This document shows, piece after piece, positions 23,155-35,303 of a stretch of 64,000 bases of DNA. Position 1 is the stretch's first letter. Each line of letters opens with the position of its first letter. Position numbers and translations under genes: made by a program. The stretch spans positions 89,591 through 153,590 of the forward strand of contig NZ_LQPT01000082.1 of assembly GCF_002102355.1 (NCBI RefSeq). The letters run 5' to 3'. This DNA comes from Mycobacterium sherrisii. Its GTDB lineage: Bacteria; Actinomycetota; Actinomycetes; Mycobacteriales; Mycobacteriaceae. The notes under the pieces were generated by a model that made no database searches, was not told the DNA's origin, and saw only the letters and a list, made by a program, of their open reading frames with translations.

Positions 23155-23214
23155 ATTGCCCTAAATTGTCGGCGCCGTTGGTTGTTCGGCGGCCGACGTG
23201 GCACGCTGTGGGGC

Positions 23215-23814
23215 GTGGCCCAGATCTCCTCGGCGGTAACGCCTGAGCAGCCCGTGGACCTGTATCCGGGGGATATCAAGTCCGTGCTGCTCACCACGGA
23301 GCAGATCCAGGCGCGCATCGGCGAACTCGGCGAGCAGATCGGCAACGACTACGCCGCGGCGCAGAGCGACCAGGATCTGCTGTTGATTACCGTGCTCAAG
23401 GGCGCGGTCATCTTTGTCACCGACCTGGCTCGCGCGATCCCGCTGCCGACGCAGTTCGAGTTCATGGCCGTCAGTTCCTACGGCTCCTCGACGTCGTCGT
23501 CGGGTGTGGTGCGCATTCTCAAAGACCTGGACCGCGACATCAACGATCGCGATGTGCTGATCGTCGAGGACATCGTGGACTCCGGCCTGACGTTGTCCTG
23601 GCTGCTGCGAAACCTCAAGACTCGACGTCCCCGCTCGCTGCGGGTGTGCACGCTGCTGCGCAAGCCCGACGCGCTGCGCGCCAACACCGACATCGCCTAT
23701 GTCGGCTTCGACATCCCTAACGAGTTCGTGGTCGGTTATGGCTTGGACTACGACGAGCGCTACCGCGACCTGTCCTACATCGGCACGCTGGACCCGCGGA
23801 TCTACGAGCAATAG
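23215..23814 (+). CDS. hpt: Hypoxanthine phosphoribosyltransferase
   Basis: 199 residues. The PRPP-binding motif [14 protein letters not shown] and the flexible-loop and substrate regions ([38 protein letters not shown]) define a type I purine phosphoribosyltransferase. It salvages hypoxanthine and guanine. GTG 23215 is preferred; an upstream TTG at 23182 would add 11 poorly conserved residues. In M. tuberculosis hpt is next to lpqG; here an accessory island separates them. Confidence 0.96.
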
Positions 23815-23822
23815 AGCCGAGT

Positions 23823-24476
23823 TCACGCGTCGGGGTAGGCGGTGATCGCCAAGAACCGGATCGGCAGGCGCACCAATTGATGCGGGCCATGCAGCGTCTC
23901 GCCGTCGAGCAACAACGTGTCGCCCGGGCGCAGCGTGTATTCGGCGTCGCCGTGGCCGTAGACCATCACGCCTTCGAGCATGTAGAGGACCTCGGTGCCG
24001 GGATGTTGAAACTGCGGAAAGACTTCGCTGGCTTCGGTCAGGGTCACCAGCACCGGTTCGAGCCGCTTGTGCGGGCCCCGCAGTGCTCCTAGCAGTTCGT
24101 AGTGGTGTCCCACCCGGGTGCCGCGGCCGATGATCGTCGAGCCGCGCCCGTTCTCGGTGTAGACCGCGTCGTGTCCGGTGTCGGCGCCGCGGAACAGCAC
24201 GGTCACCGGGACGTCCAGGCCCGCCGCCAGCCTGGCCAGCGTGGAAAGACTGCACGACGTTTGCGCGTTCTCGATCTTGGACAGCATGGCCTTGGAGATT
24301 CCGACCCGGCCGGCCATGTCGGCGATCGACAGCCCGGCCGCCCGCCGCAGGCCGCGGACCTGGCGGGCGATGGCCTTCTCCAGGTCGTTTCCGGTCAGCG
24401 CCTCAGCTACCACTTCGCGCTGGACCGGCGCCGGATCGCCGCTGTCGCGGACGACCGTGGGTTCGCGCTCCTCCAC
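23823..24476 (-). CDS. XRE-cupin transcriptional regulator (PuuR-like layout)
   Basis: About 217 residues from GTG 24476: an acidic N terminus, a helix-turn-helix (IARQVRGLRRAAGLSIADMA then GISKAMLSKIENAQ), and a C-terminal cupin (EVLYMLEGVMVYGHGD... RPGDTLLLDGETLHGPHQLV). This domain order is that of PuuR-type regulators of amine and amino-acid metabolism. It faces the glnT-like gene and is its likely regulator. The frame is open to ATG 24569, but that would put the dyad at 24499-24515 inside coding sequence. The 31 extra residues look like translated control DNA, so I favour 24476 while noting no clear ribosome site. Confidence 0.85.
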   Translation of the reverse strand: MEEREPTVVRDSGDPAPVQREVVAEALTGNDLEKAIARQVRGLRRAAGLSIADMAGRVGISKAMLSKIENAQTSCSLSTLARLAAGLDVPVTVLFRGADTGHDAVYTENGRGSTIIGRGTRVGHHYELLGALRGPHKRLEPVLVTLTEASEVFPQFQHPGTEVLYMLEGVMVYGHGDAEYTLRPGDTLLLDGETLHGPHQLVRLPIRFLAITAYPDA

Positions 24477-24498
24477 GGCGCGCGAGTCTAACAGAAAC

Positions 24499-24515
24499 GT
24501 TTCCTGTGAGGAAAC
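24499..24515. promoter_or_regulatory. Operator-like dyad A (GTTTC-N7-GAAAC)
   Basis: Perfect palindrome GTTTCC-TGTGA-GGAAAC directly upstream of the preferred regulator start (24476) and facing the glnT-like gene. Two related sites follow at 24584-24600 and 24632-24646. Probably the binding site of the adjacent XRE-cupin regulator (inference). Confidence 0.55.
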
Positions 24516-24583
24516 ACTTGTGGAGGAGTCTCGCCGGATTGTGGGGCCTGGCGGGATCATAGCGTTCACTATGACGAATCTTC

Positions 24584-24600
24584 ATTTCACCTAATGAAAC
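24584..24600. promoter_or_regulatory. Operator-like dyad B (ATTTC-N7-GAAAC)
   Basis: ATTTCACCTAATGAAAC matches dyad A in arm sequence and spacing (core TTTCA-N5-TGAAA), with one arm base changed. It lies near the middle of the 208-base gap between the regulator and glnT-like starts. Confidence 0.5.
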
Positions 24601-24631
24601 ACCCAATTGATGTGTTGGCAACATTCGACCG

Positions 24632-24646
24632 GTTTCCTCGTAGAAC
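24632..24646. promoter_or_regulatory. Degenerate operator-like site C
   Basis: GTTTC at 24632-24636 is followed after 6 bases by GAAC, a shortened version of dyads A and B. It lies about 40 bases before the glnT-like start, where it would overlap a promoter. Weak on its own; supported by the two better sites nearby. Confidence 0.35.
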
Positions 24647-24684
24647 GAGATAGTCGCGATAAGTCACGCTGAGGGAGAACCGGG

Positions 24685-26025
24685 ATGCCCGCCACCGTTG
24701 ACCTGGTCACGCTCTGTCAGGAGACCGACACCACATTCGTGCTGGCATTGTTCGTCGACCTCAACGGCAAGCCGTGCGCCAAGCTGGTACCCGTCGCCGC
24801 CGTCGACGCACTCAGCACCGACGGCGTGGGGTTCGCCGGATACGCCGTAGGAGCGATCGGCCAAACGCCGAAAGATCCCGACCTGATCGCCATTCCCGAC
24901 CCGGCGTCGTTCACGCCGATCCCGTTCGTCAAACCGGGCCTCGCGCTCGTGCACTGCGACCCCTACGTGCTGGGCAGGCCCTGGCCGTTTGCGCCGCGCA
25001 ACATTCTCAAGGCGGTGCTGCGCCAGGTCAGCGACGCCGGGTTCGACGCCTGGGTGGGGGCCGAGGTCGAGTACTTCTTGCTCAAGAAGAACCCCGACGG
25101 CAGCCTGACCACCGCCGACGGCGCCGACACCGCCCCACGGCCCTGTTACGACGCGCGCGCCGTCACCCGCATGTATGACCACTTGACCTCGATCAGCGAC
25201 GCGATGAACGCGCTGGGCTGGGGCAACTACGCCAACGACCACGAGGACGGCAACGGGCAATTCGAGCAGAACTTCAAGTTCGCCGAGGCCCTGACCACCG
25301 CCGACCGGGTGGTCACCCTGCGCTATCTGGTGTCGGTGCTGGCCGCCGAGCGCGGCATGATCGCCACGTTCATGCCCAAACCATTCGCCGACCGCACCGG
25401 CAGCGGCCTGCATCTGCACCTGTCGTTGACCAGTGCCGGCGCGGCGGTGTTTCCCGGTGTCGAGGACGAGCGCGGGCTCGGGCTTTCGGAGACCGCGTAC
25501 GGCTTCGTGGGCGGCATCCTCGATCATGCTGCCGCGCTGCAGGCCCTGATCGCACCAACCGTCAACTCCTACAAGCGAACTAGAGCGCTGTCCACCGCCT
25601 CGGGAGCGTCCTGGGCGCCGCGCACGCCCACCTACGGCGGAAACGACCGGACCCACTATGTCCGGGTGCCCGACAACCAGCGCATCGAGCTGCGCGGCGG
25701 CGACGGCTCGGCCAACCCCTACCTGGCCGTAGCGGCGGCCCTGGGTGCCGGCCTGGACGGCATCAAACGCAGCACCGACCCCGGTGCCATCGGCACGCTC
25801 GCCGCCACCCGGCCGGCGCTCCCGCTGACCTTGTTGCACGCCGTGGAGCAGCTGGAATCCGATGCGGTGCTCGCCGGTGTCCTCGATGCGGCACTGCCAC
25901 CGGGCGAGCGGGGCGAAAACCCAACAGTGTCAGACTATTACGCGGCGCTCAAGCGCGAGGAGTTCTTCGCCTGGCACTCCGCGATCAGCCCCTGGGAAAT
26001 CGATACCTACCTGGCCGCCTTCTAG
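24685..26025 (+). CDS. glnT: Glutamine-synthetase-family ligase, GlnT/gamma-glutamylmethylamide synthetase type
   Basis: 446 residues of the glutamine synthetase fold. Seen: an N-terminal beta-grasp, the metal-binding EVEYFLL (~residue 128), the NDHEDGNGQFEQNF block carrying further Glu ligands, the ATP/metal motif MPKPFADRTGSGLHLHLSL, and NSYKR with RIELRGGDGSANPYLA near the end. It lacks the adenylylation loop of GlnA1-type enzymes. The type III-like sequence next to glxBCD matches GmaS/GlnT enzymes that join an amine to the gamma-carboxyl of glutamate using ATP. The true amine (methylamine, ethylamine, polyamine, ammonia) is unknown. ATG 24685 follows GAGGGAGAA. Confidence 0.88.
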   Translation: MPATVDLVTLCQETDTTFVLALFVDLNGKPCAKLVPVAAVDALSTDGVGFAGYAVGAIGQTPKDPDLIAIPDPASFTPIPFVKPGLALVHCDPYVLGRPWPFAPRNILKAVLRQVSDAGFDAWVGAEVEYFLLKKNPDGSLTTADGADTAPRPCYDARAVTRMYDHLTSISDAMNALGWGNYANDHEDGNGQFEQNFKFAEALTTADRVVTLRYLVSVLAAERGMIATFMPKPFADRTGSGLHLHLSLTSAGAAVFPGVEDERGLGLSETAYGFVGGILDHAAALQALIAPTVNSYKRTRALSTASGASWAPRTPTYGGNDRTHYVRVPDNQRIELRGGDGSANPYLAVAAALGAGLDGIKRSTDPGAIGTLAATRPALPLTLLHAVEQLESDAVLAGVLDAALPPGERGENPTVSDYYAALKREEFFAWHSAISPWEIDTYLAAF

Positions 26026-26034
26026 CGGCCGCCG

Positions 26035-26071
26035 TCACCAGACGAGGACTCACCAGACGAAGGACTCACCA
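26035..26071 (+). repeat. Short tandem repeat before glxB
   Basis: The unit TCACCAGACGAGGAC (26035-26049) recurs as TCACCAGACGAAGGAC (26050-26065), followed by a partial third copy TCACCA. The second copy supplies the GAAGGA ribosome site of glxB, so the repeat number sets the spacing between glnT and glxB. Confidence 0.7.
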
Positions 26072-26073
26072 TA

Positions 26074-26970
26074 ATGTGCGGCATCATCGGGTTGCACCTG
26101 CGCAACCCCGATCTGTATGCACGGCTGGGCGCGCTGCTCGCCGTGATGCTCGGCGAGATGGAAGACCGTGGTGCCGATTCGGCCGGCGTCGCGGTCTACG
26201 GCGACCCGGCGTGGTCACCGAGCGGGCAGGGTTGCGTCAGCCTCATCGGCGTCACCAGGGACGCCTCAAGTGCTGCGGCCGAAGTCGGCGCCGAACTTGG
26301 CCGGCCCGTCGACGCGGTCTTTGTCGCCGACACCCTGTTACTGCGCGGGGCGGCGCCGCCGTCGGCGGTGCTCGAGGCGGCCCGTGCCGTGTTCGCGGAC
26401 GCGGTGATCGCCGGCTTCGGCCAGGATTTCGCGGTGCTCAAAGGAGTTGGGCGGCCGCGGGATCTGGTGCAGCGCTGGGGCTTGACCGCCGCGCAGGGCT
26501 GGCAGGGTGTCGGCCACACCCGGATGGCCACCGAGTCGGCGGTGAACCCGTCGGGTTGTCACCCGTACGCGGTGGGGCCAAATCAATGCCTGGTGCACAA
26601 CGGGTCGTTCGCCAACCACGCCAGCATCCGCCGGGACTTGCAAAGGGGCGGAGTGCACTTCGATTCCGAAAACGACAGCGAGGTGGGCGCGCGCTTCGTT
26701 GCCCAACAGCTCGCCGACGGGCGGGACATCGAGACCGCGCTCAAGGCGCTGTGCGCCAGCTTCGACGGCTTCTACACGCTGCTGGTGTCCGACCGCAATT
26801 CGTTCGCGGTCGTCCGGGACGCCATCGCGTGCAAGCCCGCGGTGATCGCCGAAACCGACGATTGGGTCGCGATGGCCAGTGAATACCGTGCGCTTGCCCA
26901 ATTGCCCGGCGTCGAGCGCGCCCGTGTCTGGGAACCTCAGCCCGAGGTGGTCTACGCATGGACCAGGTGA
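26074..26970 (+). CDS. glxB: Class II glutamine amidotransferase, GlxB/MgsA type
   Basis: 298 residues. Cys2 follows the initiator Met (MCGIIGLHL), so Met removal would expose the N-terminal nucleophile cysteine. Typical motifs follow: EDRGADSAGVA, HTRMATESAVNPSGCHP and CLVHNGSFANHASIRR. It equals the glutaminase domain of glutamate synthase as a free subunit and should release ammonia for, or transfer a glutamyl group with, GlxD. The ribosome site GAAGGA lies within a tandem repeat. The end overlaps glxC by 13 bases. Confidence 0.9.
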   Translation: MCGIIGLHLRNPDLYARLGALLAVMLGEMEDRGADSAGVAVYGDPAWSPSGQGCVSLIGVTRDASSAAAEVGAELGRPVDAVFVADTLLLRGAAPPSAVLEAARAVFADAVIAGFGQDFAVLKGVGRPRDLVQRWGLTAAQGWQGVGHTRMATESAVNPSGCHPYAVGPNQCLVHNGSFANHASIRRDLQRGGVHFDSENDSEVGARFVAQQLADGRDIETALKALCASFDGFYTLLVSDRNSFAVVRDAIACKPAVIAETDDWVAMASEYRALAQLPGVERARVWEPQPEVVYAWTR

Positions 26971-27647
26971 GTACCGAGTTCGATCTGGGCCGGACGCCGC
27001 TGCGCGAGGTGAACGCCGCGCTGCATGCACCAGAGGTGTTCGGCCACTTCGTGATCCGAAATCCCGCGGGCGCGCACAACATCGCCGTCGGCCTCAACGC
27101 GCCGGTGCAGGTGACCATCGACGGACATGTCGGTTATTACGCCGCGGGGATGAACCAGCAGGCCGAGGTGGTCATCGCCGGCAACGCGGGCACCGGTGTC
27201 GCCGAGAACATGATGAGCGGCACGGTCTGGGTCAACGGTGACGCCTCCCAGTCGGCGGGTGCCACCGCCCACGGCGGGTTGCTGGTCATCGAGGGCAATG
27301 CCGCTGCGCGGTGCGGTATTTCGATGAAGGGCGCCGACATCGTGGTGGGCGGGGACGTCGGTCACATGAGCGCGTTCATGGCCCAAGCCGGCAGGTTGGT
27401 GGTGCGCGGCGACGCCGGGGAGGCGCTCGGTGACTCGATCTACGAGGCTCGGATTTATGTGCGCGGCAACGTCGCCTCGTTGGGTGCCGACTGTGTGCCC
27501 AAGCAGATGACCGACGAGCACCACGCCGAGCTGGCCGCCCTACTCAAGGCCGCGGGATTCCAGGACGACCAAACCAGCGAGTACACCCGCTACGGTTCGG
27601 CACGCTCCCTGTACCACTTCCATGTCGACAATGCGGGTGCCTACTGA
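26958..27647 (+). CDS. glxC: Glutamate synthase GXGXG (beta-helix) subunit, GlxC/MgsB type
   Basis: 229 residues with the recurring glycine-rich turns of the GltB C-terminal beta-helix: GYYAAGMNQQAEVVIAGNAG, VNGDASQSAGATAHGG, VVGGDVGHMSAF, RGDAGEALGDSIYEARIYVRG. In intact glutamate synthase this domain is structural. As a free subunit it is found in GlxBCD/N-methylglutamate synthase complexes. It overlaps glxB by 13 bases and glxD by one base (TGATG), implying coupled translation and 1:1:1 assembly. Confidence 0.9.
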   Translation: MDQVSTEFDLGRTPLREVNAALHAPEVFGHFVIRNPAGAHNIAVGLNAPVQVTIDGHVGYYAAGMNQQAEVVIAGNAGTGVAENMMSGTVWVNGDASQSAGATAHGGLLVIEGNAAARCGISMKGADIVVGGDVGHMSAFMAQAGRLVVRGDAGEALGDSIYEARIYVRGNVASLGADCVPKQMTDEHHAELAALLKAAGFQDDQTSEYTRYGSARSLYHFHVDNAGAY

Positions 27648-29008
27648 TGACTTCGATCCGGCCGGGCTACGAAACCAGCAGCGATTCGCGCGCGCAACGG
27701 GGACTGCGGGAATCCGCGACCTTCGACCGCACCACCATCGCGGCGATACAGCGAGCGGCGGAGACGGGGATTTACGACATTCGCGGTTGGGGCGCCAAGC
27801 GGGCGCTTCCACACTTCGACGATCTGCTGTTTTTAGGGGCGTCGATGTCACGCTATCCGCTGGAGGGCTACCGCGAGCGGTGCGGAACCGACGTGGTGCT
27901 GGGCGACCGCCATGCCAAACAGGCGCTGCACCTGGCCATTCCGATCACCATCGCCGGAATGAGCTTCGGCGCCCTGTCCGCACAGGCGAAAGAAGCACTC
28001 GGCCGGGGCGCCAGCGAGGTCGGTACCTCGACCACCACCGGCGACGGCGGTATGACGCCGGAGGAGCGCGGCCACAGCAAACAGCTGGTCTATCAATACC
28101 TGCCGTCGCGGTACGGGATGAACCCCGACGACATGCGCAGGGCCGACGCCATCGAGGTGGTGCTGGGGCAAGGCGCCAAACCCGGTGGCGGCGGAATGCT
28201 GTTGGGACAGAAGATCTCTGACCGCGTCGCGGCGATGCGCACGCTGCCGGTCGGCATCGACCAACGCAGCGCCTGCCGGCATCCGGACTGGACCGGTCCC
28301 GACGACCTCACCATCAAGATCAACGAGCTGCGCGAGATCACCGACTGGGAAAAGCCCATCTACGTCAAACTCGGCGCGACCCGCACCTATTACGACGTCA
28401 AACTGGCCGTCCACGCCGGCGCCGACGTGGTGGTGGTCGACGGCATGCAGGGCGGCACCGCCGCCACCCAGGAGGTGTTCATCGAGCATGTGGGGATCCC
28501 CACGCTGGCCGCCATCCCGCAGGCCGTGCAGGCCCTGCAGGAACTCGGGGTGCACCGGAAGGTCCAGCTCGTGGTCTCCGGCGGCATTCGCAGCGGCGCC
28601 GACGTGGCCAAGGCGCTCGCGTTGGGCGCCGATGCCGTCGCCATCGGCACGGCCGCGCTGATTGCGCTGGGCGACAACCATCCCCGCTACGCCGCCGAGT
28701 ACGAGGAGCTCGGCAGCGCGGCGGGTTTCTACGACGACTTCCAAGACGGCCGCGATCCGGCGGGCATCAGCACCCAGGACCCCGAGCTGGCGGCCCGGTT
28801 CGATCCGGTTGCGGGGGGCCGGCGGTTGGCCAACTACCTGCGGGTGCTGACCATGGAGGCCCAGACCATCGCCCGGGCCTGCGGGAAGGCGCACGTGTGT
28901 CATCTCGAGCCCGAGGATCTGGTGGCTGTCACCATCGAGGCGGCCGCCATGGCCCGAGTGCCGCTGGCCGGCACCGGGTGGATCCCCGGGATCGCGGGTG
29001 GGCGATGA
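27647..29008 (+). CDS. glxD: FMN-binding glutamate synthase catalytic subunit, GlxD/MgsC type
   Basis: 453 residues. It equals the FMN barrel of glutamate synthase large subunits: ITIAGMSFGALSAQAKEALGRGAS, TTTGDGGMTPEERGHS, LGQGAKPGGGGMLLGQKI, then HAGADVVVVDGMQGGTAA and VSGGIRSGADVAKALALGADAVAIGTAAL, the phosphate-binding end of the barrel. With GlxB and GlxC it would form a split enzyme that in methylotrophs makes N-methylglutamate from glutamate and amine; a true glutamate synthase role is the alternative. It overlaps the next gene by 4 bases (ATGA). Confidence 0.9.
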   Translation: MTSIRPGYETSSDSRAQRGLRESATFDRTTIAAIQRAAETGIYDIRGWGAKRALPHFDDLLFLGASMSRYPLEGYRERCGTDVVLGDRHAKQALHLAIPITIAGMSFGALSAQAKEALGRGASEVGTSTTTGDGGMTPEERGHSKQLVYQYLPSRYGMNPDDMRRADAIEVVLGQGAKPGGGGMLLGQKISDRVAAMRTLPVGIDQRSACRHPDWTGPDDLTIKINELREITDWEKPIYVKLGATRTYYDVKLAVHAGADVVVVDGMQGGTAATQEVFIEHVGIPTLAAIPQAVQALQELGVHRKVQLVVSGGIRSGADVAKALALGADAVAIGTAALIALGDNHPRYAAEYEELGSAAGFYDDFQDGRDPAGISTQDPELAARFDPVAGGRRLANYLRVLTMEAQTIARACGKAHVCHLEPEDLVAVTIEAAAMARVPLAGTGWIPGIAGGR

Positions 29009-30195
29009 GCGCTGAAACCGCCGATGTCCTCATTGTGGGCGGCGGTCTCGAGGGCGCCGCGGCGGCCTGGGCGCTGAGCCAGCGAGGCGTCACCGATGTC
29101 GTTGTCGCCGAACGCGATACCGTCGGCTCGGGCATGACCGGGAAGTCCAGCGGTATCGTGCGCTGTCACTACGGGGTGAGCTCGCTGGCAGCCATGGCCG
29201 CGGTCGGTGTTGAGGTGTTCGAGAAGGCCGAGGAACTCTTCGGCTCCGACATCGGTTTCCGCCAGACCGGCTACGTGGTCGGGGTGAGCGACGCTAACGC
29301 GGACAACATGCGTAAAAGCCTTGCCGCCCAGCGCGAGATCGGGGTGCAGACCGAAGAGATCGGCAGGTCCGAGGTTGCTCGGCTGTGGCCGTACGCCGAC
29401 CTGGAGCCGTTCGGCGCGTTCGGCTTCGAGGCGCGCGGCGGCTACGGCGATGCCTATCGGACCGCCCAGGCGATGATGCTGACCGCTCGTGCCACCGGGA
29501 CACGGCTGCGGCAGGGCGCCCGGGTGCTGCGGCTGCTGGTAGCCGGCGACCGTATCTCGGGGGCGGTGTTGGCAGATGGCGCCGAGATCCATGCCGGCAC
29601 CGTGGTCGTGGCCACCGGTGCGTGGACGCCGGCGTTGCTGGCTCCCCATGGCATCGCCGTCCCCATCACCGTGCACCGCGAGCAGATCGTGATGGTGTCG
29701 CCCGGCGTCGATCTGGGACCGGTACCGGTGTTCTCCGATTTGGTGTCGCTGCAATACGTTCGGCCGGAGATCGGCGGAGACATCCTGTTCGGCAACTCCG
29801 ATCTGGCCGCACTAGACGTCGCCGACCCGGACCGATACCTCAACCGCGCCGATGCGGCTTTTCTGGAGCTGGCCGCCGAGAAAATCAGCACCCGGTTCCC
29901 CGGCCTGGGCGACGCCTCGATCAGCGGCAGCTACGCCGGGTGTTACGACGTCACCCCGGACTGGAACCCGGTGATCTCGCGCTGCGCTGTGGCGGGCTTG
30001 ATCGTCGCCGCCGGGTTCAGTGGGCACGGTTTCAAGATTTCTCCGGCGGTCGGGCGGCTGGTCGCCGACCTCGTCGTCGACGGGCACTCCAGCGACCCAC
30101 GCATTCCCGAATCCGACTTCCGGTTATCGCGGTTTGCCGAAGGGGAGCTGCTCACCAGCCGATTCCCGTACCTGGGCGCGGGCGAGATGCGCTGA
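29005..30195 (+). CDS. DAO-type FAD-dependent oxidoreductase of the glx operon
   Basis: 396 residues. The N-terminal dinucleotide fold is VLIVGGGLEGAAAAWALSQRG with a following acidic residue (VVAERD). A mid-region ATGAWTPALL and a C-terminal CYDVTPDWNPVI...AAGFSGHGFKISPAVGRLVADL are typical of sarcosine oxidase beta/glycine oxidase-like flavoproteins. It is translationally coupled to glxD. It probably oxidises the C-N bond of the N-alkyl-glutamate or gamma-glutamyl product of the upstream enzymes, releasing an aldehyde. The companion subunits of known N-methylglutamate dehydrogenases (SoxA, SoxD, SoxG types) are absent, so it may act alone. Confidence 0.85.
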   Translation: MSAETADVLIVGGGLEGAAAAWALSQRGVTDVVVAERDTVGSGMTGKSSGIVRCHYGVSSLAAMAAVGVEVFEKAEELFGSDIGFRQTGYVVGVSDANADNMRKSLAAQREIGVQTEEIGRSEVARLWPYADLEPFGAFGFEARGGYGDAYRTAQAMMLTARATGTRLRQGARVLRLLVAGDRISGAVLADGAEIHAGTVVVATGAWTPALLAPHGIAVPITVHREQIVMVSPGVDLGPVPVFSDLVSLQYVRPEIGGDILFGNSDLAALDVADPDRYLNRADAAFLELAAEKISTRFPGLGDASISGSYAGCYDVTPDWNPVISRCAVAGLIVAAGFSGHGFKISPAVGRLVADLVVDGHSSDPRIPESDFRLSRFAEGELLTSRFPYLGAGEMR

Positions 30196-30211
30196 GCGCT
30201 GGCCGGTTCGG

Positions 30212-30946
30212 CTAGTCCAGTTGCCATGCGGCGGTCACCGAGAAGCTCACCGTCTGCTGGCCGGGCTCCAGCGGCACCGGGGTCGCCATGGCCTTCGGTG
30301 CCGGCGGGCCCCCGGGCGCGGGTGGGCCGATGGCCTCCGAAATGGACAAGACCGTGCCCAGCCGCAGGCCGGACAGCTGAGCGTACTGGTCGGCACGGTT
30401 CTTGGCGTCGTTGAATGCCCGCGCGCGGGCATCCTTGACCAGTTGCGAATCGTCGGCGATCGAGTAGCTGACCGAACTGATCCGGGTGGCATCGCCGCCG
30501 GTGTTGACGATCAGTGCGAGCAGGCGCGATGCCGCGTCCGTCGGGTGGATCTTGACCCGAATGGAGTTGGTGGCACGGTAGCCGGTGATGACGGGTTCGG
30601 GACTGCCGTACTGGGGTTGCAGGGTCACCTGGGTGGTGCTGATGTCCCTACGGTCGACGCCGGCACCGATGAGCGCGTTGATGACGGCCTGCTGGCGGTC
30701 ATTGGTCTGATTCATCGCCACGGTCACGTCCGGTGCGTCGAATTCGATGCCGACGTCGGCGGTCAACGTGTCCGGCACTCCTTGCACCTGTCCCGAACCG
30801 GTGACGGTCACCTGGCGCGGATGCTCGCCCGGCGGCGCCGCCGCAGGGTGGGAATCGCACGCCGTTGCCGTGGTCACGGTCAAACCGGCCACGGCAACGG
30901 CAATCGAGCAGCGTAGGAGAAGTCCAGCGCGTTGTTCGATGGCCAT
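30212..30946 (-). CDS. lpqG: SIMPL-domain lipoprotein LpqG
   Basis: 244 residues. It has a signal peptide with hydrophobic core CSIAVAVAGLTVTTA and lipobox TATAC (Cys at about 29), then a SIMPL (DUF541) domain starting RQVTVTGSGQVQGVPDTLTADVGI. It is an envelope lipoprotein of unknown function, equal to Rv3623. ATG 30946 places the lipobox correctly; the longer open frame does not. It lies 10 bases after the small membrane protein gene and converges on the FAD oxidoreductase gene. Confidence 0.92.
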   Translation of the reverse strand: MAIEQRAGLLLRCSIAVAVAGLTVTTATACDSHPAAAPPGEHPRQVTVTGSGQVQGVPDTLTADVGIEFDAPDVTVAMNQTNDRQQAVINALIGAGVDRRDISTTQVTLQPQYGSPEPVITGYRATNSIRVKIHPTDAASRLLALIVNTGGDATRISSVSYSIADDSQLVKDARARAFNDAKNRADQYAQLSGLRLGTVLSISEAIGPPAPGGPPAPKAMATPVPLEPGQQTVSFSVTAAWQLD

Positions 30947-30956
30947 GCCAGGCACC

Positions 30957-31226
30957 CTAGCCGCTGGCCGGCTCGCTACTCCAGGATTTGTCCGACATTG
31001 CCTGGCCGACGCCGTCTTCACCGGGCGGATAATTGCGAATCAGACTGTGCGCGAGTGTGTTTGAGATCGCCGCCAGTGTCAACAGCTGAAAAATGACGAC
31101 GGCAAGGGGCAGGTCTACGGCAATCGTCGCCCAGATGAGCGTGGGAGCAAAGACCGGCGCGATCATCACCCCGACGACCATGCCGACCACGCGCAGCGCC
31201 CCGTGCCGGTTCGCGTGCGCGGTCAT
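30957..31226 (-). CDS. Small membrane protein between the P450 and lpqG
   Basis: 89 residues with two hydrophobic segments (RVVGMVVGVMIAPVFAPTLIW and LPLAVVIFQLLTLAAI) and a polar C-terminal tail. Its ATG overlaps the P450 stop codon (ATGA) and it ends 10 bases before lpqG, so it is probably translated from a P450-membrane protein-lpqG transcript. No family recognised. Confidence 0.7.
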   Translation of the reverse strand: MTAHANRHGALRVVGMVVGVMIAPVFAPTLIWATIAVDLPLAVVIFQLLTLAAISNTLAHSLIRNYPPGEDGVGQAMSDKSWSSEPASG

Positions 31227-32464
31227 CGCCGTCGCCAGAGCCGCACGGGCAGCGCGGTCAGTCCGTGCATCAGGGTGCTGTTGCGGTATCGCAGGATAAC
31301 GTTGCCGTCCAACGTGATTCGCTCGAATCGATCGAGCAGCCGTCCGATCGCGATCTCCCCCTCCAGGCGGGCCAGCGGCGCTCCCAGACAGTGATGGATG
31401 CCGTGCCCGAACGCGAGATGCGGGTTGGGAGTCCTGGCCACGTCGAGGACATCCGGATTTTCGAACTGTCGTTCGTCGTGGTTGGCACCGAGCAGCGCGA
31501 TCAGCACCAGTTGCCCCGCGGGAATCTCTATTTCACCCAGGCGAATCGGTGCGGTGCTATACCGCATGGTTGCCGTGTTGAGCGGGCTTTCGAACCGGAG
31601 GAACTCTTCTACCGCAACGGGCAGTAGGCGCGGGTCGGCGCGCAGTGTCGCAAGCTGAGATGGGTTGTGCAGCAAGGCGAATATCCCGTTGCCGATCAGG
31701 TTCACCGTGGTCTCGTAGCCCGCCAGAATCAGCAGATACGCGGTCGCCAGCAACTCTTCCCGGGAAAGTCGGTCCACGGGAGCGTTGACCAATGCGCTGA
31801 GCAGATCATCGGTGGGCAGCGTGCGCTTGCCCTCGATCAACCCGGTCAGCAATTCGATCAACGCGTTCTCGGCGTTGGTCAGTTCAGCGGGGTCGGTGCT
31901 GGTGAGCAAGGGTTCGCAGAGCAGGCGAAAGCGGTCGCGAGCAGCGGGCGGCACCCCCAGTAACGTGCCGATGACCCCCAGCGGCAGCCGGATGGCGTAC
32001 GCCTGCATCAAGTCCACCACCGCGCCGCCGTCGGCGGCTCGGGCAACAGCATCGAGCAACTCGTCGGCGATACCGACGATGTCGGGGCGCATCCGGCGCA
32101 CACTGCCGGCGGTGAACTCCTTCGTCAGCAGTTTGCGCAGCCGGGTGTGATCGGGCGGGTCCTGTTGCAGCATATGGCTATTCAGTGCTGGCGTGTACGG
32201 AGCGTGGTCACCGGGCGGGAGGAACTCGGCCAGCCCCCACCAGTCCTTGCTCAATCGTGGGTCGGCCAGCATGGCCCGCGCCTCGGTGTAGCGGGTGATC
32301 AGCCACGCCTGCGTCGCACCCCAAATCGCGACGCGGTGGGCCGGGGCCTCGGCATTGAGCCGACGGTAGTAGGCACGCGGGTCCTGAATGAATGCCCGGC
32401 CCAACCGCACTGGACTATCCGGCGTCGCGGGATGCGCACCGATCCAAGCTGGATCTAGGGTCAT
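31223..32464 (-). CDS. Cytochrome P450
   Basis: About 413 residues, soluble bacterial class. The I-helix oxygen-binding segment is LLILAGYETTVN (A-G-x-E-T), the K-helix ExxR is EEFLR, and the haem loop FGHGIHHCLG has the axial cysteine. It should use ferredoxin and reductase from elsewhere, as none is adjacent. Substrate unknown. The frame is open to a GTG at 32488, but ATG 32464 gives the usual start MTLDPAWIG. It lies 29 bases after the MmyB-type regulator and overlaps the small membrane protein gene. Confidence 0.93.
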   Translation of the reverse strand: MTLDPAWIGAHPATPDSPVRLGRAFIQDPRAYYRRLNAEAPAHRVAIWGATQAWLITRYTEARAMLADPRLSKDWWGLAEFLPPGDHAPYTPALNSHMLQQDPPDHTRLRKLLTKEFTAGSVRRMRPDIVGIADELLDAVARAADGGAVVDLMQAYAIRLPLGVIGTLLGVPPAARDRFRLLCEPLLTSTDPAELTNAENALIELLTGLIEGKRTLPTDDLLSALVNAPVDRLSREELLATAYLLILAGYETTVNLIGNGIFALLHNPSQLATLRADPRLLPVAVEEFLRFESPLNTATMRYSTAPIRLGEIEIPAGQLVLIALLGANHDERQFENPDVLDVARTPNPHLAFGHGIHHCLGAPLARLEGEIAIGRLLDRFERITLDGNVILRYRNSTLMHGLTALPVRLWRRR

Positions 32465-32493
32465 ATCTCGAATCGTGTGGGCGCACACCGCAG

Positions 32494-33324
32494 TTATCCA
32501 GGACGCATGATTCCTGGTTGTCCGACTCCCAGGCTCAGCCGGCGCATGCCATCCTCCGATTCAGAGCGGGGTTCGGCCCAATACGAAACCAGCACATGAC
32601 CGGTCGCGGGCAAAATCATCTGCTGATAGTTGAGGGTGAGCTTGCCCACCCGCGGATGGTTGACCAGCATCACCCCGGCGGGCTCGTATCTGACATCGTG
32701 CCGTTCCCAGAGCTGACGGAACCGTGGGCTTTGTTCGATCAAATCGTCGACCAGTCTGATCAGCGCGGGGTCGGGCCGCTGACCGTACAGGACGCGGATC
32801 AGGGACACCGCCCACTCGGTGAGTGGTTTCCAATTGCGGTAGAAGTTGCGTGCGGCCGGGTCACCGAACAATTCCCGCATGGTGTTAAACCCCACCCCAA
32901 AGTACGGCGACAGTGCGGCGGCCAGGTTGTTGGCGACGACCGTGTTGATGCCGGGGTCCACCACGTGCGCCGCGGTCAGTGGCCAGCCGTCGATCAGCCC
33001 CTGCAGTCCGGGATGCAAGTCCCGTAACGGCTCAACGGCGGCGACGGACCGGTGTCGGGTCAGGTTTCGCATGTAGGCCACCGCATCGTCGTCCAGTTTC
33101 AGGGCCCGGCTCAGCGCGGTGAGAACCTGATCCGACGGATGCTCTTCGCGGCCCTGCTCGAGGCGCAGGTAATAGTCCGTGCTGATGTTGGCCAGGATCG
33201 CCACCTCCTCCCGGCGTAAACCGGCCACCCGTCGGCGCCCGCCGGCCGGCAGACCGACGTCCGCCGGCTGCACCAGGCTTCGGCGGGCGCGCAGAAACTG
33301 TGCCAGGGCGGATCTTTCGGTCAC
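32494..33324 (-). CDS. MmyB-type XRE transcriptional regulator
   Basis: About 276 residues. An N-terminal helix-turn-helix (ALAQFLRARRSLVQPADVGL, then GLRREEVAILANISTDYYLR with RLEQGR) is joined to the MmyB-like C-terminal ligand-binding domain, with NTVVANNLAAALSPYF and ERHDVRYEPAG. These regulators are common beside redox enzymes in actinobacteria and are proposed to bind small hydrophobic ligands. It precedes the P450 by 29 bases on the same strand and probably controls that operon, perhaps also the divergent PE/PPE side. GTG 33324 or TTG 33333 can start it. Confidence 0.9.
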   Translation of the reverse strand: MTERSALAQFLRARRSLVQPADVGLPAGGRRRVAGLRREEVAILANISTDYYLRLEQGREEHPSDQVLTALSRALKLDDDAVAYMRNLTRHRSVAAVEPLRDLHPGLQGLIDGWPLTAAHVVDPGINTVVANNLAAALSPYFGVGFNTMRELFGDPAARNFYRNWKPLTEWAVSLIRVLYGQRPDPALIRLVDDLIEQSPRFRQLWERHDVRYEPAGVMLVNHPRVGKLTLNYQQMILPATGHVLVSYWAEPRSESEDGMRRLSLGVGQPGIMRPG

Positions 33325-33399
33325 GGGGGCCAATCGTTGCGGGGGAGTCGGGGTGGGGATCGGCTCCGTCTGGTCGAGCCATGAGGGCGGATCAGCTGC

Positions 33400-34058: not shown

Positions 34059-35303
34059 ATGCTGGATTTCGCACAGCTACCGCCGGAGATCAATTCGGCG
34101 CTGATGTATGCCGGGCCCGGTTCGGGGCCGCTGCTGGCGGCCGCCGCGGCGTGGGAGGCGCTGGCCGCCGAGCTGCACGCGGCGTCCGCCACCTACGGCG
34201 CGTTGATAGCCAGCCTCACCGACGGTCCCTGGGAGGGACCGTCGGCCTCCGCCATGCTGGCCGCGGCGGTGCCTCAAGTGGTCTGGCTACGTGAGACCGC
34301 GGGGCAGGCCGAGGAGGCCGGTGCTCAGGCCGCGGCCGCGGCGGCCGCGTTCGAGGCGGCGTTCGCCGGAACGGTACCCCCGCCGGTGGTTGCGGCGAAC
34401 CGGGCGTTGCTGCTGGAGCTCTTGGCCACGAACTTCCTCGGCCAGAACACGGCAGCGATCGCGGCCGTCGAGACCGAATACGCCGAAATGTGGGCCCAAG
34501 ACGCGGGGGCGATGTACGGGTACGCGGGCGCGTCGGCCACCGCCGCCAAACTGCCGCAGCCGCAGTCGGCGGCCCCCGCCACCGACCCCGCCGGGACGGC
34601 CGGGCAGGCCGCCGCGGTGGCGCAGGCCGCGGGGAGCACCGCCGGCACCAACGCCCGAGGTCTGACCACGGTGCCACAAACGTTGTCCGCGCTGGCCGGA
34701 ACTGGAACCAACACGTCCCAGTCGCCCGGGCTGTCGTTCGGGGGCATCGGGATGAACGACGAGGGTGACGGGTTTGCGCTGAGCGGCCCGCTGGGCGACT
34801 TCTTCGAAGGCCTCACCGGCTCACAGGAATTGGACGCCAGCTCGCCGTTCGACATGTTCATCCGGTTGGTGTCGCCCACCCGGCTGTTCACCACCGCCTT
34901 CAAGGACGTTCAAAGCATTGCGCAGGGTTTTGCGCCCCAGGCCGCAAAGGCCGCCACGGAAGGCGCGGCGAAGGCGGCCGAGGGCGCCGCGAAGGCCATC
35001 GAGGCGGTGCCACACGCGTTGAATGGCGCCCTGGGCAATGCCGTCGGCGCGGCGGGCCGGGCGGCGTCCGTCGGCGGTCTATCCGTCCCGGCGTCGTGGG
35101 GAGCGGTCACCCCGACGGCCGGCCCGGCCATCGTGACGCTCAACGGCACCACCGCGGCCGCGACCCAGCCGGCGACCCACGCGGTCGGTGGCATGCCGCT
35201 GCTGGGTAGTGGCGCCGCCCGCAGCGTCGGGGCCGCTCACTTTGCGCCGCCCCGTTACGGATTCAAGCCCACGATCATCACTCACCCGCCGGCGGGCGGG
35301 TAG
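34059..35303 (+). CDS. PPE family protein, PPE-SVP subgroup (PPE65-like)
   Basis: 414 residues, close to PPE65 (Rv3621c). The N-terminal PPE domain (~1-175) starts [19 protein letters not shown] and contains the WxG-like GPWEGPSA. The C-terminal region holds GGLSVPASW, the SVP signature, followed by an Ala/Gly/Pro-rich end. It is presumably exported as a dimer with the PE protein. The esx pair that follows PPE65 in M. tuberculosis is absent; the next gene is convergent and only 12 bases away. Confidence 0.94.

Follow-up and report, generated by a model that had tools for sequence, protein, structure and literature searches.

A six-gene island of Mycobacterium sherrisii as a candidate short N-methylglutamate pathway ending in a single flavoprotein

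A 64,000-nucleotide stretch of the Mycobacterium sherrisii genome (contig NZ_LQPT01000082.1, positions 89,591 to 153,590), here called the window, contains a compact island of six genes in which a glutamine synthetase-family ligase, a split glutamate synthase (GlxB, GlxC and GlxD) and a DAO-type flavoprotein form an operon that faces a divergent XRE-cupin regulator. Comparison of these sequences with related loci and genomes leads us to consider it likely that the island is a horizontally acquired operon that draws nitrogen from methylamine through a shortened version of the N-methylglutamate pathway, with the lone DAO protein as its last enzyme.

In the proposed pathway, the ligase would couple the gamma-carboxyl group of glutamate with methylamine at the expense of ATP, a step read from its residues and phylogeny that would yield gamma-glutamylmethylamide. 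By homology with MgsABC, the N-terminal Cys of GlxB would split gamma-glutamylmethylamide and the flavin mononucleotide (FMN) site of GlxD would place the methylamine onto 2-oxoglutarate to give N-methylglutamate, with GlxBCD together acting as an N-methylglutamate synthase. The DAO protein, as its co-occurrence with the ligase and its family suggest, would oxidize the N-methyl group to leave glutamate and formaldehyde, and the latter may pass to mycothiol-dependent formaldehyde dehydrogenase, of which this genome has two copies over cut-off. From its place, the XRE-cupin protein is expected to control the operon. The genes of the island are as follows.

23815..30211: whole island, inserted between hpt and lpqG, whose 3' ends converge on it
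23823..24569, minus strand: XRE-cupin regulator, divergent from the operon; HTH_31, HTH_3 and Cupin_2 over cut-off
24685..26025, plus strand: GmaS-like ligase of the type III glutamine synthetase family; TIGR03105 583.8 bits, Gln-synt_C
26074..26970, plus strand: GlxB/MgsA, class II amidotransferase with an N-terminal Cys (Met-Cys start); GATase_6/7
26958..27647, plus strand: GlxC/MgsB; GXGXG, PF01493 40.2 bits (cut-off 32.5)
27647..29008, plus strand: GlxD/MgsC, FMN glutamate synthase domain; PF01645 (Glu_synthase) 302 bits
29005..30195, plus strand: single-subunit DAO flavoprotein, proposed N-methylglutamate oxidase or dehydrogenase; PF01266

All six reading frames lie where the original prediction, made from the sequence of the window, had placed them, and the open reading frame list and domain searches give each the expected domains. 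By their coordinates, GlxB and GlxC overlap by 13 bases, GlxC and GlxD by 1, and GlxD and DAO by 4; a 432-residue frame from 28897 is a mechanical reading frame, and the true DAO start is at 29005. Three split glutamate synthase-like parts (GATase_6, GXGXG and Glu_synthase) adjoin the ligase, as expected if GlxBCD are the MgsABC equivalents they had been taken for, and the MCGI start of GlxB is common to three proteobacterial proteins.

Matches to solved structures, residues and trees indicate that the ligase belongs to the GmaS type, as first proposed. It passes TIGR03105 well above the cut-off of 469.6 bits, and its closest solved structures are RhGmaS (7cql, E 2.8e-109) and an entry titled 'Glutamate--methylamine ligase' (9qur, E 8.6e-94), with the next entries at 1.9e-50 or weaker. 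The catalytic residues of RhGmaS are Asp177, Glu186 and Arg312, and its methylamine pocket is made up of Tyr147, Gln175, Asp177, Glu179, Glu186, Asn188 and Lys30' (PMC7948447). In an alignment of 42 sequences, the window ligase retains seven of these eight residues (Lys30, Tyr147, Asp177, Glu179, Glu186, Asn188 and Arg312), which include all three catalytic ones. Furthermore, two trees place it among the type III ligases, a grouping that takes in RhGmaS, 9qur and the ligases encoded next to SoxBDAG, and apart from the ordinary, ammonia-using synthetases, with which a misassigned ligase might have clustered.

The gene set is not peculiar to this genome. We compared 80 related loci, the best 80 of 261 related stretches, which were picked by the ligase alone, over-represent near relatives and were scored for the presence of a gene anywhere in the locus. 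The block recurs in them (GlxB in 80, GlxC in 78, GlxD in 77, DAO in 70, two at only 28-31%, and the regulator in 67), and its anatomy is therefore not a product of chance. An ammonium transporter (Amt) gene is present in 56 of the loci and a gene for the dimethylamine monooxygenase HODM in 25. Upstream, the recurrent genes, whose families were named by Pfam on one representative each, encode an ammonium transporter, an EutQ-like cupin and parts of dimethylamine monooxygenase, which comprise HODM and DmmA-like domains, one of the latter together with a 2Fe-2S domain. As DmmABC converts dimethylamine to methylamine (PMC5520151), these neighbors make methylamine the most natural substrate. In a genus sample of 148 genomes, an even draw from a larger group that includes this genome, the ligase is present in 57, and HODM occurs in 33 of the 57 vs 6 of the 91 others; no HODM was found in the M. 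sherrisii genome. The DAO gene, scored as present at 50% identity or more, is in 56 of the 57 ligase genomes and none of the 91 others (Fisher p 2e-40, uncorrected for relatedness or for both genes travelling as one operon). These comparisons support the earlier proposal of an amine-as-nitrogen role.

One could instead suppose that the island scavenges ammonia during nitrogen starvation, with a type III glutamine synthetase and a split glutamate synthase working as an auxiliary assimilation pair and the DAO as a separate amino acid oxidase. The family name, 'type III glutamate--ammonia ligase', agrees with this, as does the induction with amt1 under nitrogen limitation of a Mycobacterium smegmatis operon of like annotation. 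However, the window ligase has Asp177 where His is found in ordinary synthetases, namely archaeal 8oow and two from this same genome (L001 and L002), which is thus already provided with His177 enzymes, and neither the ligase-DAO linkage (56 of 57) nor the Dmm neighbors (25 of 80 loci) are accounted for. We regard ammonia scavenging as quite improbable, and an ordinary auxiliary glutamine synthetase was set aside on residue 177, the trees and the gene company. The genome has six places of the glutamine synthetase family, the island ligase included. At G000:C84:118676-119227 (L006), a glutamine synthetase-type catalytic domain lies in a 790-residue frame and matches the family model in part; this may be a FluG-like fusion.

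The original prediction held that one flavoprotein stands where four Sox-type subunits are usual, and the genus sample agrees: a DAO without a stand-alone SoxG is found in 44 of the 57 ligase genomes, that of M. sherrisii among them, while the only ligase genome without a DAO, G041, does have SoxG. The window carries one DAO only in place of the four-subunit MgdABCD (SoxBDAG type) described in PMC9800807 and PMC8292978. SoxG is absent from the M. sherrisii genome by a search that was positive in 19 of the 148 genomes, and SoxD was not found there by a search that had no positive control. In a tree, the DAO groups with betaproteobacterial DAOs whose genes lie close to type III ligases or ETF genes and stands separate from SoxB/MgdA (Shimodaira-Hasegawa-like approximate likelihood ratio test (SH-aLRT) 98), to whose rows it is 24-27% identical. 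The His of the SoxB 'RHD/KHD' motif, to which FMN is attached, is present in four SoxB/MgdA rows and in 2gag_B and is replaced by Ala in the window DAO. Additionally, Arg53, His341 and Lys344 are invariant in an alignment of 24 sequences that includes the window's, and we take them to sit at the substrate-carboxylate residues of monomeric sarcosine oxidase, a protein outside the alignment. Judged from sequence, these features fit an N-methyl amino acid oxidase or dehydrogenase that acts without partners. A SoxB query matched 68 of the 80 loci, but the 40 matches listed are at 23-30% identity and fall on the DAO itself, and so they were not counted as MgdA; SoxD, SoxA, SoxG and HutG queries on the same loci gave none among the matches listed. 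From its co-occurrence and family, the lone DAO probably replaces N-methylglutamate dehydrogenase.

Several observations weigh against the proposed pathway. Within the ligase, pocket residue Gln175 is Ala in all 23 actinobacterial type III ligases aligned, the window's among them, and is kept in all 13 proteobacterial, cyanobacterial and solved GmaS-type sequences aligned. A paralogue from the same genome (L003) also has Asp177 and sits unresolved beside the type III ligases in one tree, so that Asp177 alone is no proof of a GmaS. The branch order of the three ligase groups is unsure, with support of 97/89 for uniting the actinobacterial and RhGmaS groups in one tree and an SH-aLRT of 27 in the other, and long branches were flagged in both. 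At the oxidation step, 13 of the 57 ligase genomes have SoxG in addition to the DAO, and the replacement is thus not universal; SoxG is in fact commoner in ligase genomes than in others (13 of 57 vs 1 of 91), an enrichment that replacement does not explain and that may mean broader methylated-amine use. Eight of the 80 loci have no close DAO though their sequence continues past GlxD, and the co-occurrence of ligase and DAO may largely reflect the transfer of one operon. Finally, M. smegmatis SMR5 does not grow on 10 mM methylamine as sole nitrogen source (PMC4222082).

Some of these points would suit a different small amine, such as ethanolamine or ethylamine, that enters the same chemistry to give an N-alkylglutamate and an aldehyde. 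M. smegmatis SMR5 shows GlnR-dependent growth on ethanolamine (it does not grow on urea either, which the authors leave unexplained; PMC4222082), the change of Gln175 to Ala could alter the amine pocket in actinobacteria, and a gene of the EutB cluster is present in 3 of the 36 loci that were clustered together with the window. EutB, though, is an ethanolamine route of its own that needs no ligase, the recurrent neighbor is a dimethylamine monooxygenase (25 of 80 loci) whose product is methylamine (PMC5520151), and Mycobacterium sp. 141, a reported methylated-amine user, has a ligase and GlxBCD 70-87% identical to those of the window (L085; PMC5023230). Another amine is therefore unlikely, and methylamine is, on these comparisons, the likeliest substrate. 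The original prediction had allowed for an amine other than methylamine, a suggestion that is countered by the Dmm genes in relatives, the mostly kept pocket and the related cluster in a methylated-amine-using Mycobacterium, though the behavior of M. smegmatis on methylamine speaks for it. The EutB genes of L034, L103 and L109 are members of one sequence cluster, and each shares a stretch of 17-21 kb with the ligase operon of its locus; the assignment to ethanolamine ammonia-lyase was made by Pfam for the L103 member only.

It is also conceivable that the pathway runs as proposed up to N-methylglutamate, that this is then oxidized by an enzyme encoded outside the operon, and that the DAO has a different function, such as the oxidation of sarcosine or dimethylglycine. 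The nearest NCBIfam matches of the DAO (N-methyltryptophan oxidase, the SoxB family and the monomeric sarcosine oxidase family), all under cut-off, span several substrates, SoxG is present in 13 of the 57 ligase genomes, and McTaggart et al. put MgdA-D of strain 141 outside its Gma-MgsABC cluster (PMC5023230). Yet 44 of the 57 ligase genomes, this one too, have the DAO and no stand-alone SoxG, and none of the 148 genomes has a DAO at 50% identity or more without the ligase, which makes a role elsewhere rather unlikely.

The DAO proteins of related loci hint at a further variant of the last step. Among the 80 loci, 53 have a DAO of the window's kind (class A), 15 have one about 50% identical (class B) and 12 have no close DAO; in four of these 12 (L060, L073, L108 and L117) the sequence stops short of the DAO position. 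At a distance of up to 3 kb from the DAO, an M20 hydrolase is encoded in 13 of the 15 class B loci and HutD in eight (L047, L053, L063, L074, L102, L104, L113 and L119, seven of which have M20 too), whereas both are found in 0 of the 53 class A loci. M20 matches, together with weak HutD matches, also occur in L116 and L120, which have no close DAO. Family membership was confirmed for three actinobacterial HutD proteins (L047, L074 and L104; Pfam), two betaproteobacterial ones and two M20 proteins. The M20 protein near the class B DAO passes NF006770 ('allantoate amidohydrolase'), as does the hydrolase encoded between hutU and hutF in L163 and L165, the hut operons (hutU, M20 gene, hutF, hutI and hutD) of mycobacterial genomes G087 and G119. 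Of two other HutD loci, L164 has an M20 gene by BLAST and L166, which ends at 10 kb, gave no M20 match. HutF produces N-formylglutamate, and HutG (PF05013) is found in 2 of the 148 genus genomes, neither of them G087, G119 or the M. sherrisii genome; the M20 protein of L163 and L165 is therefore likely to be an N-formylglutamate hydrolase, and the name 'allantoate amidohydrolase' is probably wrong there. HutD is found in five of the 148 genomes, this one not among them.

All six annotated betaproteobacterial loci (L129, L130, L140, L141, L158 and L162) have the DAO close to a gene annotated as N-formylglutamate deformylase or amidohydrolase, although L141 and L162 carry the same DAO accession and do not count as independent. 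Four of the six also have an annotated HutD, and five have ETF genes. The stretches of L141, L158 and L162 contain no ligase, and in them the DAO and the deformylase may belong to a different route. Two more loci carry no annotation, and in a haloarchaeal DAO locus no deformylase-type gene was seen. Related DAOs thus occur in two phyla in the company of deformylases that are unrelated to each other, which suggests that N-formylglutamate is an intermediate in the class B actinobacterial and the betaproteobacterial loci. More tentatively, and with some doubt on our part, the ligase-linked DAO family might define a formaldehyde-free N-methylglutamate pathway in which the N-methyl group is oxidized to N-formylglutamate, which borrowed histidine-utilization enzymes would cut to glutamate and formate; the class A form of the window, with such partners in 0 of 53 loci, would then be a formaldehyde-releasing version or would rely on an unlinked hydrolase. 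The idea is weaker for the window because neither HutD nor HutG (PF05013) was found in its genome, and a HutG route in the window itself was rejected on the same grounds. A search of open-licence literature found no paper with both 'N-formylglutamate' and 'N-methylglutamate'. If N-formylglutamate is indeed the intermediate, this would be a one-carbon route without free formaldehyde.

Two other details of the original prediction, a PuuR-like regulator and the lack of a transporter, hold in part. The regulator does have the XRE and cupin domains, but it scores 33.4 bits against the PuuR family of NCBIfam (equivalog cut-off 211), and PuuR-type putrescine regulation was rejected on this score. No transporter is encoded in the window; an Amt gene is, however, a frequent neighbor in relatives (56 of 80 loci), and Amt genes lie elsewhere in this genome. 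At G000:C20:59959-61145 (L122 and L123), an ammonium transporter appears as two adjoining part-family matches, which could be a frameshift, real or from assembly, or a short gap.

The island was also said to lie between hpt and lpqG, neighbors in Mycobacterium tuberculosis, and these genes do adjoin in relatives. The flanking genes, which we take to be hpt and lpqG, and the features between regulator and operon are as follows.

23182..23814, plus strand: hpt, left neighbor; Pribosyltran
24570..24684: divergent promoter region, 47% guanine plus cytosine (GC)
24581-24598, in the promoter region: inverted repeat TTCATTTCACCTAATGAA, presumed candidate operator
30212..31021, minus strand: lpqG, right neighbor; SIMPL domain, PF04402

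In one relative (G017), 10 bases separate the protein matches of hpt and lpqG in L143, a count that takes in both stop codons and leaves 4 bases between them, and the gap between the protein matches is 12 bases in L145 and L147 and 6 in L149. Altogether, lpqG was found next to hpt in 9 of the 15 loci from relatives (L143, L144, L145, L147, L149, L154, L155, L156 and L157), at a distance of about 0.9 kb in L155; in the other six it was not within the flank examined. None of 100 related loci gave an hpt match, a set in which some contigs occur twice (L037-L040, four of 20 further loci, are apparently the same contigs as named loci). A Candidatus Mycobacterium methanotrophicum plasmid carries the nearest cluster (ligase 88%, DAO 77%), which adjoins tyrosine recombinase and transposase genes and gave no regulator match. 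With hpt and lpqG adjoining in relatives and the nearest cluster on a plasmid, the island was probably acquired horizontally. Its GC content (67.6% over 23823-30195) is like that of the 10-kb flanks (69.2 and 66.3%) and is of no help on origin. Near the island, Cytochrome P450 and MmyB-like regulator genes lie 5 bases apart on the minus strand (31223-33333), and a PPE-family frame (34059-35303) clusters with PPE genes near the ligase cluster in L021, L022, L041 and L046.

The proteobacterial N-methylglutamate pathway (GmaS, MgsABC and MgdABCD) resembles the island in its ligase and split synthase, and in the Dmm and Amt neighbors of the window's relatives; the alphaproteobacterial plasmid loci L133, L137 and L138, for example, combine ligase and GlxBCD with SoxBDAG. 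The window differs in having no MgdABCD but one FAD protein of another clade. In Cupriavidus (L129), Aquabacterium (L130) and Paraburkholderia (L140), a single DAO of the window's clade accompanies a ligase, GlxBCD and an XRE regulator; their DAO, however, is only 31-33% identical, and N-formylglutamate deformylase and HutD genes lie beside it, with ETF genes in two of the three.

Within mycobacteria, methylamine use by this pathway was proposed in 2015 for Mycobacterium sp. 141 and 155, where MgdA-D are encoded at a distance from Gma and MgsA-C (PMC5023230). The contig of strain 141 (L085) has a ligase 71% and GlxBCD 70-87% identical to those of the window; the section on the pathway in that paper assigns MgdA-D elsewhere and names no DAO protein. 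In G063, which is probably this strain, contig C27 (17044-22442) holds two convergent DAO copies that share 60 and 66% identity with the window DAO; they lie some 2 kb beyond a HODM gene (all within about 6 kb) and on another contig than the ligase. The M. smegmatis operon MSMEG_6259-6264, likened to the island by annotation, has after amt1 the same annotation order as the window operon, which itself is not headed by amt1. Its expression is GlnR-dependent (amt1 11.67-fold, glnT 16.11, amidotransferase 10.36, FwdC-FmdC 7.40, glutamate synthase 7.01 and oxidoreductase 5.06; PMC4222082), MSMEG_6259, 6260, 6261 and 6263 are up under nitrogen limitation (PMC4617892), and a GlnR site lies at MSMEG_6259 (PMC3662644). 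The GlnR-controlled M. smegmatis operon and the proposed Gma-MgsABC of Mycobacterium are thus already known, and the new part is the lone DAO as last enzyme; in the titles and abstract openings of open-licence literature, no single-subunit replacement of MgdABCD is described among the matches listed.

A methylamine-type ligase is carried by 57 of the 148 mycobacterial genomes in the sample, or roughly four in ten. If the proposed pathway is correct, the DAO would be a one-gene replacement for MgdABCD and a candidate for the enzyme that completes the use of methylamine in mycobacteria and Gordonia, and a role would be suggested for the nitrogen-induced operon of M. smegmatis.

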